DNA from: Candidatus Adiutrix sp.
GTDB taxonomy: Bacteria > Desulfobacterota > Desulfarculia > Adiutricales > Adiutricaceae
Direction: 5' to 3'
Assembly: GCA_031263565.1 (NCBI GenBank)
Contig: JAISFR010000004.1
Location: 1-64,000 of the forward strand
DNA length: 64,000 nt
Shown here one piece after another: positions 12,656 to 21,626 of this stretch. The notes under the pieces were generated by a model. It ran no database searches, was not told the origin of the DNA, and saw only the letters and a program-made list of their open reading frames with translations. A program made the translations under genes and the position numbers. Every line of letters starts with the position of its first letter. Position 1 is the stretch's first letter.

Positions 12656-13680
12656 TAATTGGTTGAAAGATAGGGCACGCTGCAGGCCCGGCAGGCCGGG
12701 AGGTCATAATAGCGGCCGTTTAAATGGGCCTGGCGCAGTTCCAGGTAGGCCGGGCTCCGCCAGATTTCCCCAATGGACTGCCGACGGGCGTCGCCCACGA
12801 TCAGCCGGCGTTCCCAGTCGCCGCAGCAGGGGCCGGCCGGGCCGTCCCAGAAGACGAAAAAGCGCCGGAAAAGATCCGGGCAGACAAAGCCGGGGAAGAG
12901 ACCGTAAGTTTTTTCATAATCCAGGCCCATGACCGTGGGCCGCCCAAAACCTATTTCGGCCACCTTCAGATCCCGAAAAAGCTTGATATAGTCAGCCTTG
13001 AGCTTCTCCAATTCGTCGCCGGCCAGATTTTTCGGCAGCACCATCGAGGCTCTGGTCTGAAGGCCCTTTTTGCCCAGTTCTTCCTTACTCTCCATAAAGT
13101 CCCGGATATTGGCCAGGGTTTTTTCATATTCGGCCCCCACCCTGACCGCCTCATATTCGGCCGGGTAGGGCGAATCAAAAGAGAAGAAAATGTCGCTCAG
13201 ACCGGCCTCCAAAAGGCGCCGCGATTTCTCCCGGCTCAAAAGCGTGGCATTGGTGTTGATCATGACCCAGAGCCCGGCTTCAGCGGCCAGGCTGACCATG
13301 TCTTCCAGCCGGGAATAGAGCAGCGGCTCGCCCAGAAAATTGAGCTTGACCGACTTGAGCCCCTCTTGGGCGCCTTCCTCGATCAGCCGCCGATACAGCC
13401 CGAAATCCATGTCGCCCAGGCGGCCTTCCGGGTTCCAGTCCGGCCGGCCCTCCTTAAGGTAATAAGTCCGGGGGCACATTGAGCAGCTGAGGTTGCAGCG
13501 GTTGGTGGGGTCGATGTCCAGATGCAGGGGAAAGGCTCCGGCTTCCCGCATTCCGGGCCGTTCATCCCACTGCCGCCGGTATTCCCGATAATCCGGGCGC
13601 CGATAGGGGCGCCAGTCAAGTTCGGGCGGGGCGGCCAGCTCATAATAAGTCGGGCTGCGATAGTTGATCGGCTCCGCCAT
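12655..13680 (-). CDS. Radical SAM protein with SPASM-like C-terminus
   Basis: 341 residues. The SAM-binding 4Fe-4S motif is CNLSCSMC (C62, C66, C69) after HLDIDPTNR. The TIM-barrel continues with LNFLGEPLLYSRLEDMV (GEP motif) and INTNATLLS. The C-terminal region has cysteines in VCPDLFRRFF, GPCCGDWER and PACRACSVPY, typical of a SPASM auxiliary-cluster domain with an IGEIWRSPAYLELR segment. Such proteins modify peptides, mature enzymes or act on sugars; no precursor peptide is visible nearby. The ATG overlaps the upstream IMP cyclohydrolase stop by one base, so it belongs to the same operon. Confidence 0.88.
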   Translation of the reverse strand: MAEPINYRSPTYYELAAPPELDWRPYRRPDYREYRRQWDERPGMREAGAFPLHLDIDPTNRCNLSCSMCPRTYYLKEGRPDWNPEGRLGDMDFGLYRRLIEEGAQEGLKSVKLNFLGEPLLYSRLEDMVSLAAEAGLWVMINTNATLLSREKSRRLLEAGLSDIFFSFDSPYPAEYEAVRVGAEYEKTLANIRDFMESKEELGKKGLQTRASMVLPKNLAGDELEKLKADYIKLFRDLKVAEIGFGRPTVMGLDYEKTYGLFPGFVCPDLFRRFFVFWDGPAGPCCGDWERRLIVGDARRQSIGEIWRSPAYLELRQAHLNGRYYDLPACRACSVPYLSTN

Positions 13681-14264
13681 TAGTTGGCCAAATAATCGGC
13701 GATCGTCCGGTCATACTCGCTGGTGCGGCGATAGACTTTCCGGGCCAGGTAGCGGCGGGTTTCCAGGCTGGTCTGGCCGGTGGCCGTCAATTCCCCCAAA
13801 ACCAGGGCATAGTCGCCGCTGTCGCAGAGCACGGTGACCGAGGCGAAATTCTTGGCCCCGGCCCGCAAAAGGCAGGGCCCGCCGATGTCGATATTTTCGA
13901 TGGCTTCCTCGAAAGTCACCCCGGGTTTGGCGATGGTGGCCTCAAAGGGGTAGAGGTTGACCACCAGAAGGTCGATCGGGCCATAGCCCCGCTCGGCCAT
14001 CTGGGCCATGTGTTCCGGCCGGTCCCGGCGATGGAGGAGCCCGGCGTGAATTTTGGGATGAAGGGTCTTGACCCGCCCGTCCAGAATTTCCGGGGAACCG
14101 GTGTAGTCAGCCACTTCGGCGACTTTCAGCCCTCCCCCGCTCAAAGCCTTGGCCGTGCCGCCGGTGGACAGGATCTCCACGCCCAGGCCGGCCAGGGTCC
14201 GGCCCAGTTCCAAAAGTCCGCTCTTGTCGGAAACGCTGATCAGGGCACGTTCCACTTTCTTCAT
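13680..14264 (-). CDS. purH: Stand-alone IMP cyclohydrolase (N-terminal half of PurH)
   Basis: 194 residues covering only the MGS-like IMP cyclohydrolase domain of Pur[52 protein letters not shown] ([11 protein letters not shown] is diagnostic), [29 protein letters not shown] and a C-terminal [11 protein letters not shown]. Full PurH is about 510-520 residues and carries AICAR formyltransferase C-terminally; that half is absent here and the following codons encode an unrelated radical SAM protein. The final step of IMP synthesis is therefore intact, and AICAR formylation must be encoded elsewhere. It overlaps obg by four bases (ATGA). Confidence 0.92.
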
Positions 14265-18176: not shown

Positions 18177-19082
18177 CTACAGCAGGAGCCCCAAAGCCAC
18201 CCGGGAGACGAAATCCATGGTGTCGTTCTGCCCGGAAGACTTGACCAGGCAGTCGTCGACCCCGTTGCCGGGGGTCATGACTTTTTCGATCTTGTCCTGG
18301 TTGGCGGTACAAATGATGAAATAGCAGGGGATGAGCCTGTGGGTGAACTTGACCGCCTGGCAGAAGTCCAGGCCGGTCTGGCCCTCCAGTTCCAGGTCGC
18401 TGACGATGATGTGGGGCCGCTCTTTCATGGCGATATTGAGTCCGTCGTCAGGATTGGAGGCGGTCAGGGTCTGGAAATTGTGATCGTCCAATATTTTTTT
18501 CAGCAGTTCCAACTGGTAAGGAGAATCAGAGACCACCAGGGTCTTGCGGGCCTGGGCGATGACCGGGTTGATCAGGAGATGGGCGATGAGCTTCTGAAAA
18601 CTGTGGCTCTTGCCGCGCAGTACGCCAAGCTGTTTCTCCAGGCGGTTGACGGCCGCCTCCGGGACGTAATTTTCCAGCGCTTTAAAGCGCAGTCGGCCGG
18701 GGCCGGAAATGGAACGCTCCACGTAATTCAAGAGAGCCGGAATCTGAAACTTGTGGGGCAGAAAGGCCCGGGCCCCCTCATTTAAGGCCATGAGCACCTG
18801 TTCGCGCCCGGTGTTCTCTTCGTTTTCGATTAAAATGAATTCCGGGCGCTCCGCCAGGTCGGTGGCGGTCTGCATCAATTTGACGCTGGCGGCGTCTTCC
18901 GGCCAGTAATCCATGATGACCACATCCGGGGTCTCGGCCATAATCCGGTCGGCCACGGCTTTGAGCCCCTGCTCGTAACTCAGGTCGCCCAGAATCCGAA
19001 CTTCATGCCTGGTTTCGGCCAGAGCTTTCTCCACCTCTTTGAGAATCTTTTCATCGTTCAGGCTCAAGATTATGCGGGCCAT
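18177..19082 (-). CDS. Tandem-receiver signalling protein
   Basis: 301 residues, start at 19082 (MARIILSLNDE) with GGAG five bases upstream; a GTG at 19088 overlapping cheA is the alternative. It has two CheY-like receivers: residues about 3-125, with VVIMDYWPED as the phosphoacceptor Asp and a Lys in FLPHKFQ, and about 182-300, with HIIVSDLELEG and CLVKSSGQN. Both lack the full acidic pair at the first strand (SLND, VVSDS), and the helix between them (NRLEKQLGVLRGK) may mediate dimerisation. No output domain. Either receiver may be degenerate, so it may act as a phosphate sink or adaptor for the upstream CheA. Confidence 0.85.
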   Translation of the reverse strand: MARIILSLNDEKILKEVEKALAETRHEVRILGDLSYEQGLKAVADRIMAETPDVVIMDYWPEDAASVKLMQTATDLAERPEFILIENEENTGREQVLMALNEGARAFLPHKFQIPALLNYVERSISGPGRLRFKALENYVPEAAVNRLEKQLGVLRGKSHSFQKLIAHLLINPVIAQARKTLVVSDSPYQLELLKKILDDHNFQTLTASNPDDGLNIAMKERPHIIVSDLELEGQTGLDFCQAVKFTHRLIPCYFIICTANQDKIEKVMTPGNGVDDCLVKSSGQNDTMDFVSRVALGLLL

Positions 19083-19084
19083 GA

Positions 19085-21238
19085 TCACTCCATCATCATA
19101 TTCTCGAATTCGGTTACATTGTAATACCTGACCAGTTGCTTTTCAAAAAAGCGGTTCACCTCAGCCAGAGAATAGGTGGAGGAGAACATGATCTTGAGTT
19201 TGGAAACCGCCAGCCCGCGTTCGATTTTGTCCAGGGGGGGCACGGTGTCCATCAGGTCGGCGATCTGGGCCAGACGTTTCAAAATCAGATAGACCGCCAG
19301 GGAAGGATCCTGGAAAGAGGGCCCGATTTTGATGAAGGACTGGTAGACCCTCACATCTCTGGAAGTTAGTTTGGCGAAATAGAGTATGTTGGCCAGGGGG
19401 GAAAGGTGAAAGGTGTCGCTGTCGGCCTCGTCGGCGGAACTTTCCTGGGCGCTTTCCTGGCGGCGGTATTTGGCCGCGGCGGCCAGAAGCTCGGGGTCGG
19501 TCACCTCGTAGCCTCGGCCGGCCCGGATCTGGCTCAGGCCCAGTTCCAGGTTTTTGACCGAATCCAGCAAGAGGTCGATGATATCCTGAGAAACCGACAG
19601 TTCCTTTTCCCGGATGCGGTCCAGGACGTTTTCGACCTCGTGGACAAAGGCCCCTACATTGGTGAAGCCGGTCATGATGAAGTTGCCCTTGATGGAGTGG
19701 AAATGCCGGAAGATGGTATTGATGCGCCGGATATTCTCAGGGTCCTTTTCCAACTGGAAGATGTCTTCGTTGAGGTCGTTGAGGATGTTGTGAATCTCGA
19801 TGAAGAACTCTTCGGCCACATTTTCGTCCAGATCCGCGGGCCGGGCCGCTTCCCCGGCCTCGTGAAATTCTTCCGCGGGACCGGCGCCCCGGCCGTCCGG
19901 AACAGCTTCGAAAGCGCCGGCGGCGGAAAGATCCAGACCCGAAACCCCGAAAGCCCCGCGGTCTTCGCCGCTTTCCAGGGTGCGCCCGGTGGCCAGGGCG
20001 ATCAGTTCAAAGGGGTCCAGCACCATGCCCAACTGGTTGCCGCCCAGGATGGTGGTGCCGGAAACGCCCCGCACCGAAAAAATTTCCGGCAGAGGAATGA
20101 GCACCAACTTCTGGGGCCGGATGAATTCGGATACTTTCAGGGCGATGCGGCCGTTTTTGGCGTCAATGATGATGACCGGCAGGGTGTCGAATTTTTCATT
20201 GAGCGGCGCGCCGCTCAAAAGGCCCCGAAGGTCGTGCAGGGGAATGATGGAACCCAGATACTGGATGCTCTCGGCGGCTTCCATGGTGGTGATGACTTCC
20301 CGGGGGTCGAAGGCCTGGGTGGCCACCACGTTGCCTATGGGCACCGCGCAGTAGCTCTCGCCGGTGCGGATGATCAGGGCGTCGGTGATGTTGACCGCCG
20401 AAAGCTGGGGAATCTTGTAGGTGAAGACCGTACCCCGGCCGGCGGCGGTTTCGATCAGCACTTCGCCGCCCAGAGTTTCCACGGTGTTCTTGACCACGTC
20501 CATGCCCACCCCGCGGCCGGAGATCTCGGTGGCCTCGATGTTGGTGGAAAAGCCGGGCTGCATGATCAGGTTCCAGCATTCGGCCTGGCTGATGGCCGCC
20601 GCGGCCGAAGGGGACAGAAGACCCTTTTCCACGGCCACCTGACGAATGCGGGCCTCGTTGAGGCCCCGGCCGTCGTCGCTGACCGAGACATAGGTGAAGC
20701 CTTCCTTTTTATAGGCGGTCAGGATCAACTGCCCGGTGGGCTCCTTGCCGCTGTGCTGGCGCTCCAAAGGATCTTCCAGACCGTGGTCGACGGCGTTTCT
20801 GATCTGATGGGCCAGGGGCTCGTAAAGTTTTTCGGCCACGGTCTTGTCGACCAGGGTGTCTTCCCCGACTATTTCAAAATTGACCTGCCGGCCTTTTTTC
20901 TTCGCAATGTCGCGCACCAGGCGCCGGAAGCGCAGGAAAGTGTCCCGGATGGGCACCATGCGGATATCCATGACCAGGTGGTGAAGATCGGAGGAGATGC
21001 GGTTGGCGGTCAGGGCCGCGTTCTTGACCATCTCCATGGAGCTTTTGTCAATGCTGGCCGCCGAGGTCGACAGATGCCGCTGAAGTATGGAAATATTGGA
21101 GGCGGTGATGATGATCTCCCCGGTCAGGCCCAAAAGCCGGTCAAGGTGGGAGATCTTGACCGCCATGCGATCCAGTTCCGGCGGGGCGCCGGGATCTTTG
21201 ACGTCTCCGGGGACTTGCGGGTTCGGATTACCAGGCAT
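19085..21238 (-). CDS. cheA: CheA-type histidine kinase with permuted domain order (P3-P4-P5-P1-P2)
   Basis: 717 residues. Order seen: residues about 22-95 CheA dimerisation helices; 120-280 HATPase with N-box HQIRNAVDHGLE, SDDGRGLNE and GRGVGMDVVKNTVETLGG; 282-425 a CheW-like SH3-type domain (VNITDALIIRTGESYCAVPI, YLGSIIPLHDLRG); a linker; 470-580 an Hpt domain with phosphorylatable His514 in FRHFHSIKGNF; 610-717 a P2-like alpha/beta region. Canonical CheA has Hpt first and CheW last, so this is effectively a circular permutation. All catalytic residues appear intact. The ATG overlaps the 3' end of cheY by 11 bases, ruling out a lost N-terminal Hpt. No receptor, CheW, CheR or CheB gene is nearby. 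Confidence 0.9.
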   Translation of the reverse strand: MPGNPNPQVPGDVKDPGAPPELDRMAVKISHLDRLLGLTGEIIITASNISILQRHLSTSAASIDKSSMEMVKNAALTANRISSDLHHLVMDIRMVPIRDTFLRFRRLVRDIAKKKGRQVNFEIVGEDTLVDKTVAEKLYEPLAHQIRNAVDHGLEDPLERQHSGKEPTGQLILTAYKKEGFTYVSVSDDGRGLNEARIRQVAVEKGLLSPSAAAAISQAECWNLIMQPGFSTNIEATEISGRGVGMDVVKNTVETLGGEVLIETAAGRGTVFTYKIPQLSAVNITDALIIRTGESYCAVPIGNVVATQAFDPREVITTMEAAESIQYLGSIIPLHDLRGLLSGAPLNEKFDTLPVIIIDAKNGRIALKVSEFIRPQKLVLIPLPEIFSVRGVSGTTILGGNQLGMVLDPFELIALATGRTLESGEDRGAFGVSGLDLSAAGAFEAVPDGRGAGPAEEFHEAGEAARPADLDENVAEEFFIEIHNILNDLNEDIFQLEKDPENIRRINTIFRHFHSIKGNFIMTGFTNVGAFVHEVENVLDRIREKELSVSQDIIDLLLDSVKNLELGLSQIRAGRGYEVTDPELLAAAAKYRRQESAQESSADEADSDTFHLSPLANILYFAKLTSRDVRVYQSFIKIGPSFQDPSLAVYLILKRLAQIADLMDTVPPLDKIERGLAVSKLKIMFSSTYSLAEVNRFFEKQLVRYYNVTEFENMMME

Positions 21239-21626
21239 GATCGAATATCCTCGTCAGTACGCTGTTGATCATTTCAGCCGTGGGGGGCTTGGTCAGATAA
21301 TCGTCGGCCCCCAACCTCAGGGCCCGGAAGATATATTTGGAATCGGCGTGGGTGGAGATGATGACCACCGGAATTTTTCTGAGGGCCGGGTCATTCTTGA
21401 TGGCTTCGGTCAGTTCAAAGCCGTCCAGCTCCGGCATGACCAGGTCGGTGATGACCAGGTCCACGGGCTTGGACTTCAGGATTTCCTGGGCCTTCAGCCC
21501 GTTTTCGGCTTCGGTGGTGCTCAGGCCCAGACTCTGAACGAGTTCCTTGATGGTCTTGCGCACGGCCAGGTAATCATCGACCACCAGGACCGATTTTCCC
21601 TGCCAGGGCGGGTTGGGTTGAGCCAT
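21228..21626 (-). CDS. cheY: CheY-like single-domain response regulator
   Basis: 132 residues. A complete receiver: VLVVDDYLAVRKTIKELV (acidic pair), VITDLVMPELDG with the phosphoacceptor Asp, VVIISTHADS (Ser/Thr switch) and DDYLTKPPTAEM (Lys). No output domain. First gene of the cluster, overlapping cheA by 11 bases, so translationally coupled. Probably the phosphorylation target of the adjacent kinase; could act on a motor, pilus or enzyme. Confidence 0.93.
   Translation of the reverse strand: MAQPNPPWQGKSVLVVDDYLAVRKTIKELVQSLGLSTTEAENGLKAQEILKSKPVDLVITDLVMPELDGFELTEAIKNDPALRKIPVVIISTHADSKYIFRALRLGADDYLTKPPTAEMINSVLTRIFDHAW

Follow-up and report, generated by a model that had tools for sequence, protein, structure and literature searches.

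CheA ranks among the most studied signaling kinases, and the stretch of DNA analyzed here, referred to as the window (64,000 nucleotides of Candidatus Adiutrix sp., contig JAISFR010000004.1), contains a cheA gene in which the Hpt domain lies behind the CheW-like domain. This locus raises the question of whether its product is a genuine CheA or two genes joined by error, and, if genuine, where the rearranged kinase came from and how it would work. The features on which the analysis rests are as follows:

18177..19088, minus strand: REC2, 303 aa with two receivers (Pfam Response_reg), overlapping the cheA stop by 4 bases
19085..21238, minus strand: permuted CheA, 717 aa, P3-P4-P5-P1-P2 by Pfam, an order repeated in 66 further genomes
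20963..21160, minus strand: P3 dimerization domain (H-kinase_dim), residues 27-92; PF02895, 24.7 bits, cutoff 23
20405..20815, minus strand: P4 ATPase domain (HATPase_c), residues 142-278; PF02518, 53 bits
19997..20380, minus strand: P5 CheW-like domain, residues 287-414; PF01584, 50.5 bits
19829..19990, minus strand: variable P5-P1 linker, residues 417-470; 51-64 aa in relatives
19544..19816, minus strand: P1 Hpt domain, residues 475-565; PF01627, 41.9 bits
19697..19699, minus strand: codon of His514, predicted phospho-acceptor in FHSIKGN, invariant in alignments A1 and A2
19415..19513, minus strand: P1-P2 linker, residues 576-608; 32-34 aa in relatives
19142..19348, minus strand: P2 response-regulator docking domain, residues 631-699; PF07194, 23.5 bits, cutoff 23
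21228..21626, minus strand: stand-alone CheY-like receiver, 132 aa; Pfam Response_reg, 98.5 bits, overlapping cheA by 11 bases

The cheA gene is a single open frame starting at 21238 and stopping at 19085 on the minus strand, and the five Pfam domains of its product, each exceeding the curated gathering cutoff, read P3-P4-P5-P1-P2 rather than the canonical P1-P2-P3-P4-P5. The core (residues 26-408) aligns with P3-P4-P5 of Thermotoga maritima CheA 1b3q (E 2e-68) and also with 3ja6, which together with the Pfam domains bears out the initial annotation of the protein as a CheA with Hpt and P2 last. The P3-P4-P5 unit, which PMC10542144 treats as the core of CheA, is present in that order, and the Hpt with His514 is on the same chain; Hpt had been expected within residues 470-580, where the Pfam profile indeed found it. 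Active-site motifs had been described as intact, and in 29 diverse sequences, down to 35% identity, the N (RNxxDHG), G1 (DDGxG), and G2 (SGRGVGMDVV) ATP-binding boxes of P4 are invariant, as are H514, K517, G518, and N519 of P1. Six diverse relatives have the same Pfam domain order, with H-kinase_dim just below the cutoff in three of them, and the PF07194 score of P2 reaches 36-38 bits in some relatives. Since the upstream cheY overlaps the cheA start by 11 bases and only ~25 residues precede P3, no N-terminal Hpt is missing, as had been argued from the same overlap.

The tail of the protein (residues 465-717) was modeled by AlphaFold with a pLDDT of 83. In a fold search the best match to this model was the P1-CheY/P2 structure 2lp4, and TM scores by target were 0.92 with CheA P1 1tqg and 0.83 with T. 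maritima CheA P2 1u0s_A; P2 alone gave no match by phmmer against the PDB, but the fold search of the tail did match. What had been called a P2-like domain is therefore correctly placed last but is P2 proper. The full-length AlphaFold model, built on a shallow alignment, has a mean pLDDT of 59 and models P3 and P5 poorly. Together, these data identify the 717-aa protein as a genuine CheA-type kinase with a domain-level circular permutation, in which the P1-P2 block has kept its internal order and shifted as a unit from before P3 to after P5.

The permuted order was found in 67 genomes from three bacterial phyla (37, 20, and 10 genomes; phylum names are the labels of records L025, L030, and L039). 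A whole-collection scan returned 20 more permuted proteins, full-length or nearly so, from termite-gut Adiutrix, other "Deltaproteobacteria" records, and one Planctomycetota-labeled record (L025); they include a protein encoded by the finished chromosome CP026657 (strain Smac51). In addition to these 20, the scan returned a Nitrospinota protein at 43% identity and a record truncated by its contig end (L029). None of the remaining loci returned by the scan is permuted. In a profile search of the window's class, 36 copies lie on one contig each and one is interrupted by contig ends. The carriers are 35 of the 37 genomes of the own family and both genomes of another family of the order; the permuted CheA was found neither in the two genomes of a third family nor in the rest of the class. 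Among 395 sampled genomes of the window's phylum it occurs in the own family only. It is carried by 20 of 24 Nitrospinota genomes and by 10 of the 372 genomes sampled from the L025 phylum. In the phyla of G467 (369 genomes) and of the Spirochaetes-labeled G471 (393 genomes), no permuted CheA was found among the two to three best candidates scored per genome. Permuted proteins score 516-1407 bits against the full-length profile (complete copies in the window's class at least 1130), and the best-scoring canonical CheA of that class reaches 326, which excludes a chance match. One genome of the window's genus (G001; 2.1 Mb, ~91% complete), unlike nearly all its relatives, gave neither a FliG match nor a permuted-CheA candidate and perhaps represents a reduced, nonmotile lineage.

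This distribution bears directly on the possibility that a frameshift, misassembly, or gene fusion joined two genes. In its favor, three L025-phylum genomes (L206, L207, and L208) have a permuted cheA frame that is interrupted within its P3-P4 part, these breaks being either assembly errors or pseudogenes. The frame is, however, continuous in dozens of independent assemblies, and misassembly or frameshift in the window is ruled out by 36 further genomes of the order, CP026657 among them and one with the gene split by contig ends, and by two more phyla, so that an artifactual origin, which the initial annotation had named as the outcome that would undo it, is vanishingly improbable.

To place the permuted CheA among other CheAs, we constructed a tree on the P3-P4-P5 core, which excludes the permuted trait itself, from 42 permuted and 65 canonical proteins, the latter including the three other CheAs of the own genome and the five other CheAs of a Nitrospinota genome. 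All 42 permuted proteins group in a single clade (SH-aLRT 100), which contains two Nitrospinota groups and one Adiutricales/L025 group. Its stem, at 1.8 changes per column, separates it from the 65 canonical CheAs, a set without labeled F1-F17, ACF, or Tfp references. A recent rearrangement of a CheA of the own genome was considered and rejected, the other three being distant on the tree. P1 and P2 have diverged in step with P3-P4 and P5 (r 0.91-0.96 between their pairwise distances), indicating that the parts of the permuted protein have been inherited together. The phylogenetic evidence indicates that the permuted CheA is an old, inherited, and singly derived class.

Wherever the contig extends, in Adiutricales, Nitrospinota, and the L025 phylum, cheY is found directly upstream and REC2 downstream of the permuted cheA, with a cheA-REC2 gap of up to ~2 kb in a few Adiutricaceae (L027). 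The partner CheY conserves all its phosphorylation residues (D17, D18, D61, T92, and K113 in 52 aligned frames). The N-terminal receiver of REC2 is degenerate; its C-terminal receiver keeps D231, T261, and K283 and retains only one member of the usual acidic pair. Clustering of flanking genes detected no real gene other than cheY and REC2 common to all three groups, two small mixed clusters being opposite-strand frames over cheA, and MCP, CheW, CheR, and CheB genes are absent from the cassette in all three groups wherever neighborhoods are readable; a CheX-family gene lies nearby at five Nitrospinota loci. The cassette is a chemosensory module without a receptor or coupling protein of its own, and these sequences are best read as a functioning CheA class that is carried in a portable cassette of cheY, cheA, and REC2 and would dock on CheW and receptors encoded elsewhere. 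As a separate observation, the partner CheY and its orthologs share a nearly invariant STHxDxxY motif, in which a His directly follows the conserved Thr, an arrangement that looks unusual for CheY. Elsewhere in the window, the purH frame at 13680-14264 on the minus strand encodes only 194 aa; these cover MGS (IMP cyclohydrolase) and just the beginning of the AICAR transformylase domain, the remainder of which is absent from this frame.

We consider it probable that the protein is a functional CheA kinase, that it belongs to an ancient class which arose once by relocation of P1-P2 as a block, and that it works as follows. P3 would dimerize the protein; P4 would bind ATP and phosphorylate His514 of P1, which would hang off the P5 C terminus by a flexible linker of ~55 residues; P2 would dock the co-encoded CheY, and the phosphate would pass to CheY Asp61. 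It might also pass to Asp231 of the REC2 C-terminal receiver as a second output or sink, a role that is a guess because this receiver has lost an acidic residue and the first is degenerate. P5 would connect the kinase to receptor/CheW complexes whose genes lie elsewhere in the genome. Ordinary CheA already has P1 and P2 on long tethers, so the chemistry would be kept after relocation; in E. coli these linkers, joining P1 and P2 to the core, are long and disordered (PMC10653900), and a liberated Hpt is fully functional (PMC10542144), which suggests that the new tether need not impair catalysis. With 51-64 residues, the P5-P1 linker should be long enough for P1 to reach either subunit, in cis, as the initial annotation had suggested, or equally in trans. 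The permutation would leave the start of the P3 helix unburdened and make P5 internal. The initial annotation had this the wrong way around in proposing that the CheW-domain end is freed: the P5 C terminus is free and P1-P2 is attached to the P3 N terminus in canonical CheA, and in the permuted protein the P5 C terminus carries P1-P2 and the P3 N terminus is free.

Outside the cassette, the own genome encodes five MCPs and three CheWs, as well as three further CheAs, whose genes adjoin fliF/fliG in one case and a CheD-receiver fusion in another and cluster with CheW-CheR-CheB in the third. The permuted P5 is the lowest-scoring CheW domain of the genome (54.7 bits vs. 78-130), which, together with a cassette lacking receptor, CheW, CheR, and CheB in every group, weakens its predicted coupling to a receptor array. 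The lack of these genes in the cassette, the divergence of P5, and a sequence in which no membrane segment was found could be taken to mean that P5 has drifted and that the protein works as a soluble kinase independent of arrays, with its input through REC2 or another protein instead of MCP/CheW. Such a kinase seems quite unlikely, given a P5 that is full length, scores above the Pfam cutoff in all cases tested, and retains many invariant residues, in a genome where CheW and MCPs are available.

An alternative specific to the Adiutricaceae arises from the CheA encoded in the cheA-cheW-cheR-cheB cluster, in which all 16 readable copies (L101, L211, L213-L221, L223-L226, and L229) have intact P4 motifs and a pseudo-P1 without the phospho-accepting His, substituted by R, S, K, and the like, the Lys being replaced too; the own-genome copy (L101:1232-3865; G000 contig C107) lacks His throughout the 429 residues that precede P3, and HTIKG is retained in the cluster CheA of the outgroup L228, which belongs to another family of the order. 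Such a kinase would need an acceptor in trans, for which the permuted CheA is one candidate, and the bipartite CheA3/CheA4 of Rhodobacter sphaeroides, acting together as one CheA (PMC10542144), offers a precedent. The permuted protein could then be mainly a phospho-acceptor partner, its His514 phosphorylated in trans by the His-less CheA. This we regard as doubtful: the permuted P4 is intact, other acceptors exist in the own genome (a pair of canonical CheAs and one stand-alone Hpt protein), and all five further CheAs of the Nitrospinota genome G063 keep their P1 His, so that acceptor partnership is not the ancestral role and is rejected as a general role for Nitrospinota. The narrower idea of a division of labor in the Adiutricaceae, between an array kinase without His and a permuted CheA giving His514 and a CheY dock, is likewise unlikely; if true, the signals of one array would be written onto a kinase from a separate cassette. 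The stand-alone Hpt protein (L230:1141-2022; G000 contig C132) is 293 aa long with HTIKG and is encoded near a sigma-54-type activator gene. L101:1232-3865 also contains, at residues ~335-450 before P3, three to four LGEILVxxGxIxxxxLxxAL(xx)Q repeats that match only DUF4388 in Pfam, weakly, and that we take to resemble MshEN/GspE-N-type repeats.

The output of the permuted CheA is probably not confined to the flagellum. FliG is present in most carriers, but no FliG match was obtained in five Nitrospinota carriers, three of them sisters on the tree (G063, G462, and G463), most FliG-negative genomes being drafts whose completeness is not given. A strict flagellar link is accordingly unsupported, and this pattern suggests an output that is either nonflagellar or additional to the flagellar one.

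The permuted CheA shares with canonical CheA (E. coli and T. maritima) the five domains, the catalytic and Hpt residues, and the internal order of P1-P2, and differs in the C-terminal position of P1-P2 and in having only cheY and REC2 around its gene. CheAs of Helicobacter pylori and of the ACF and Tfp classes (PMC10542144) likewise have a signaling domain after P5, which shows that P5 tolerates a C-terminal extension; there, however, a receiver follows P5 and the Hpt is N-terminal, whereas here P1-P2 follows P5. The bipartite CheA3/CheA4 (PMC10542144) also shows that P1 need not precede P3 on one chain, but consists of two proteins with the Hpt separate, in contrast to P1-P2 fused after P5 in one continuous frame. 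A survey of 13,673 CheAs (PMC10542144/PMC10782961) describes CheAs that are split, that miss P2, that have extra Hpt domains, or that are fused to receiver or CheC/CheX domains, and its text mentions no protein with Hpt behind CheW and no permutation; nor was a permuted or C-terminal-Hpt CheA found described in the openly licensed literature. The permuted CheA is a new CheA variant and not a new kind of system. The class provides a natural test of how strongly receptor control depends on P1 and P2 being tethered to P3, which has previously been addressed through liberated P1 domains and linker mutants.
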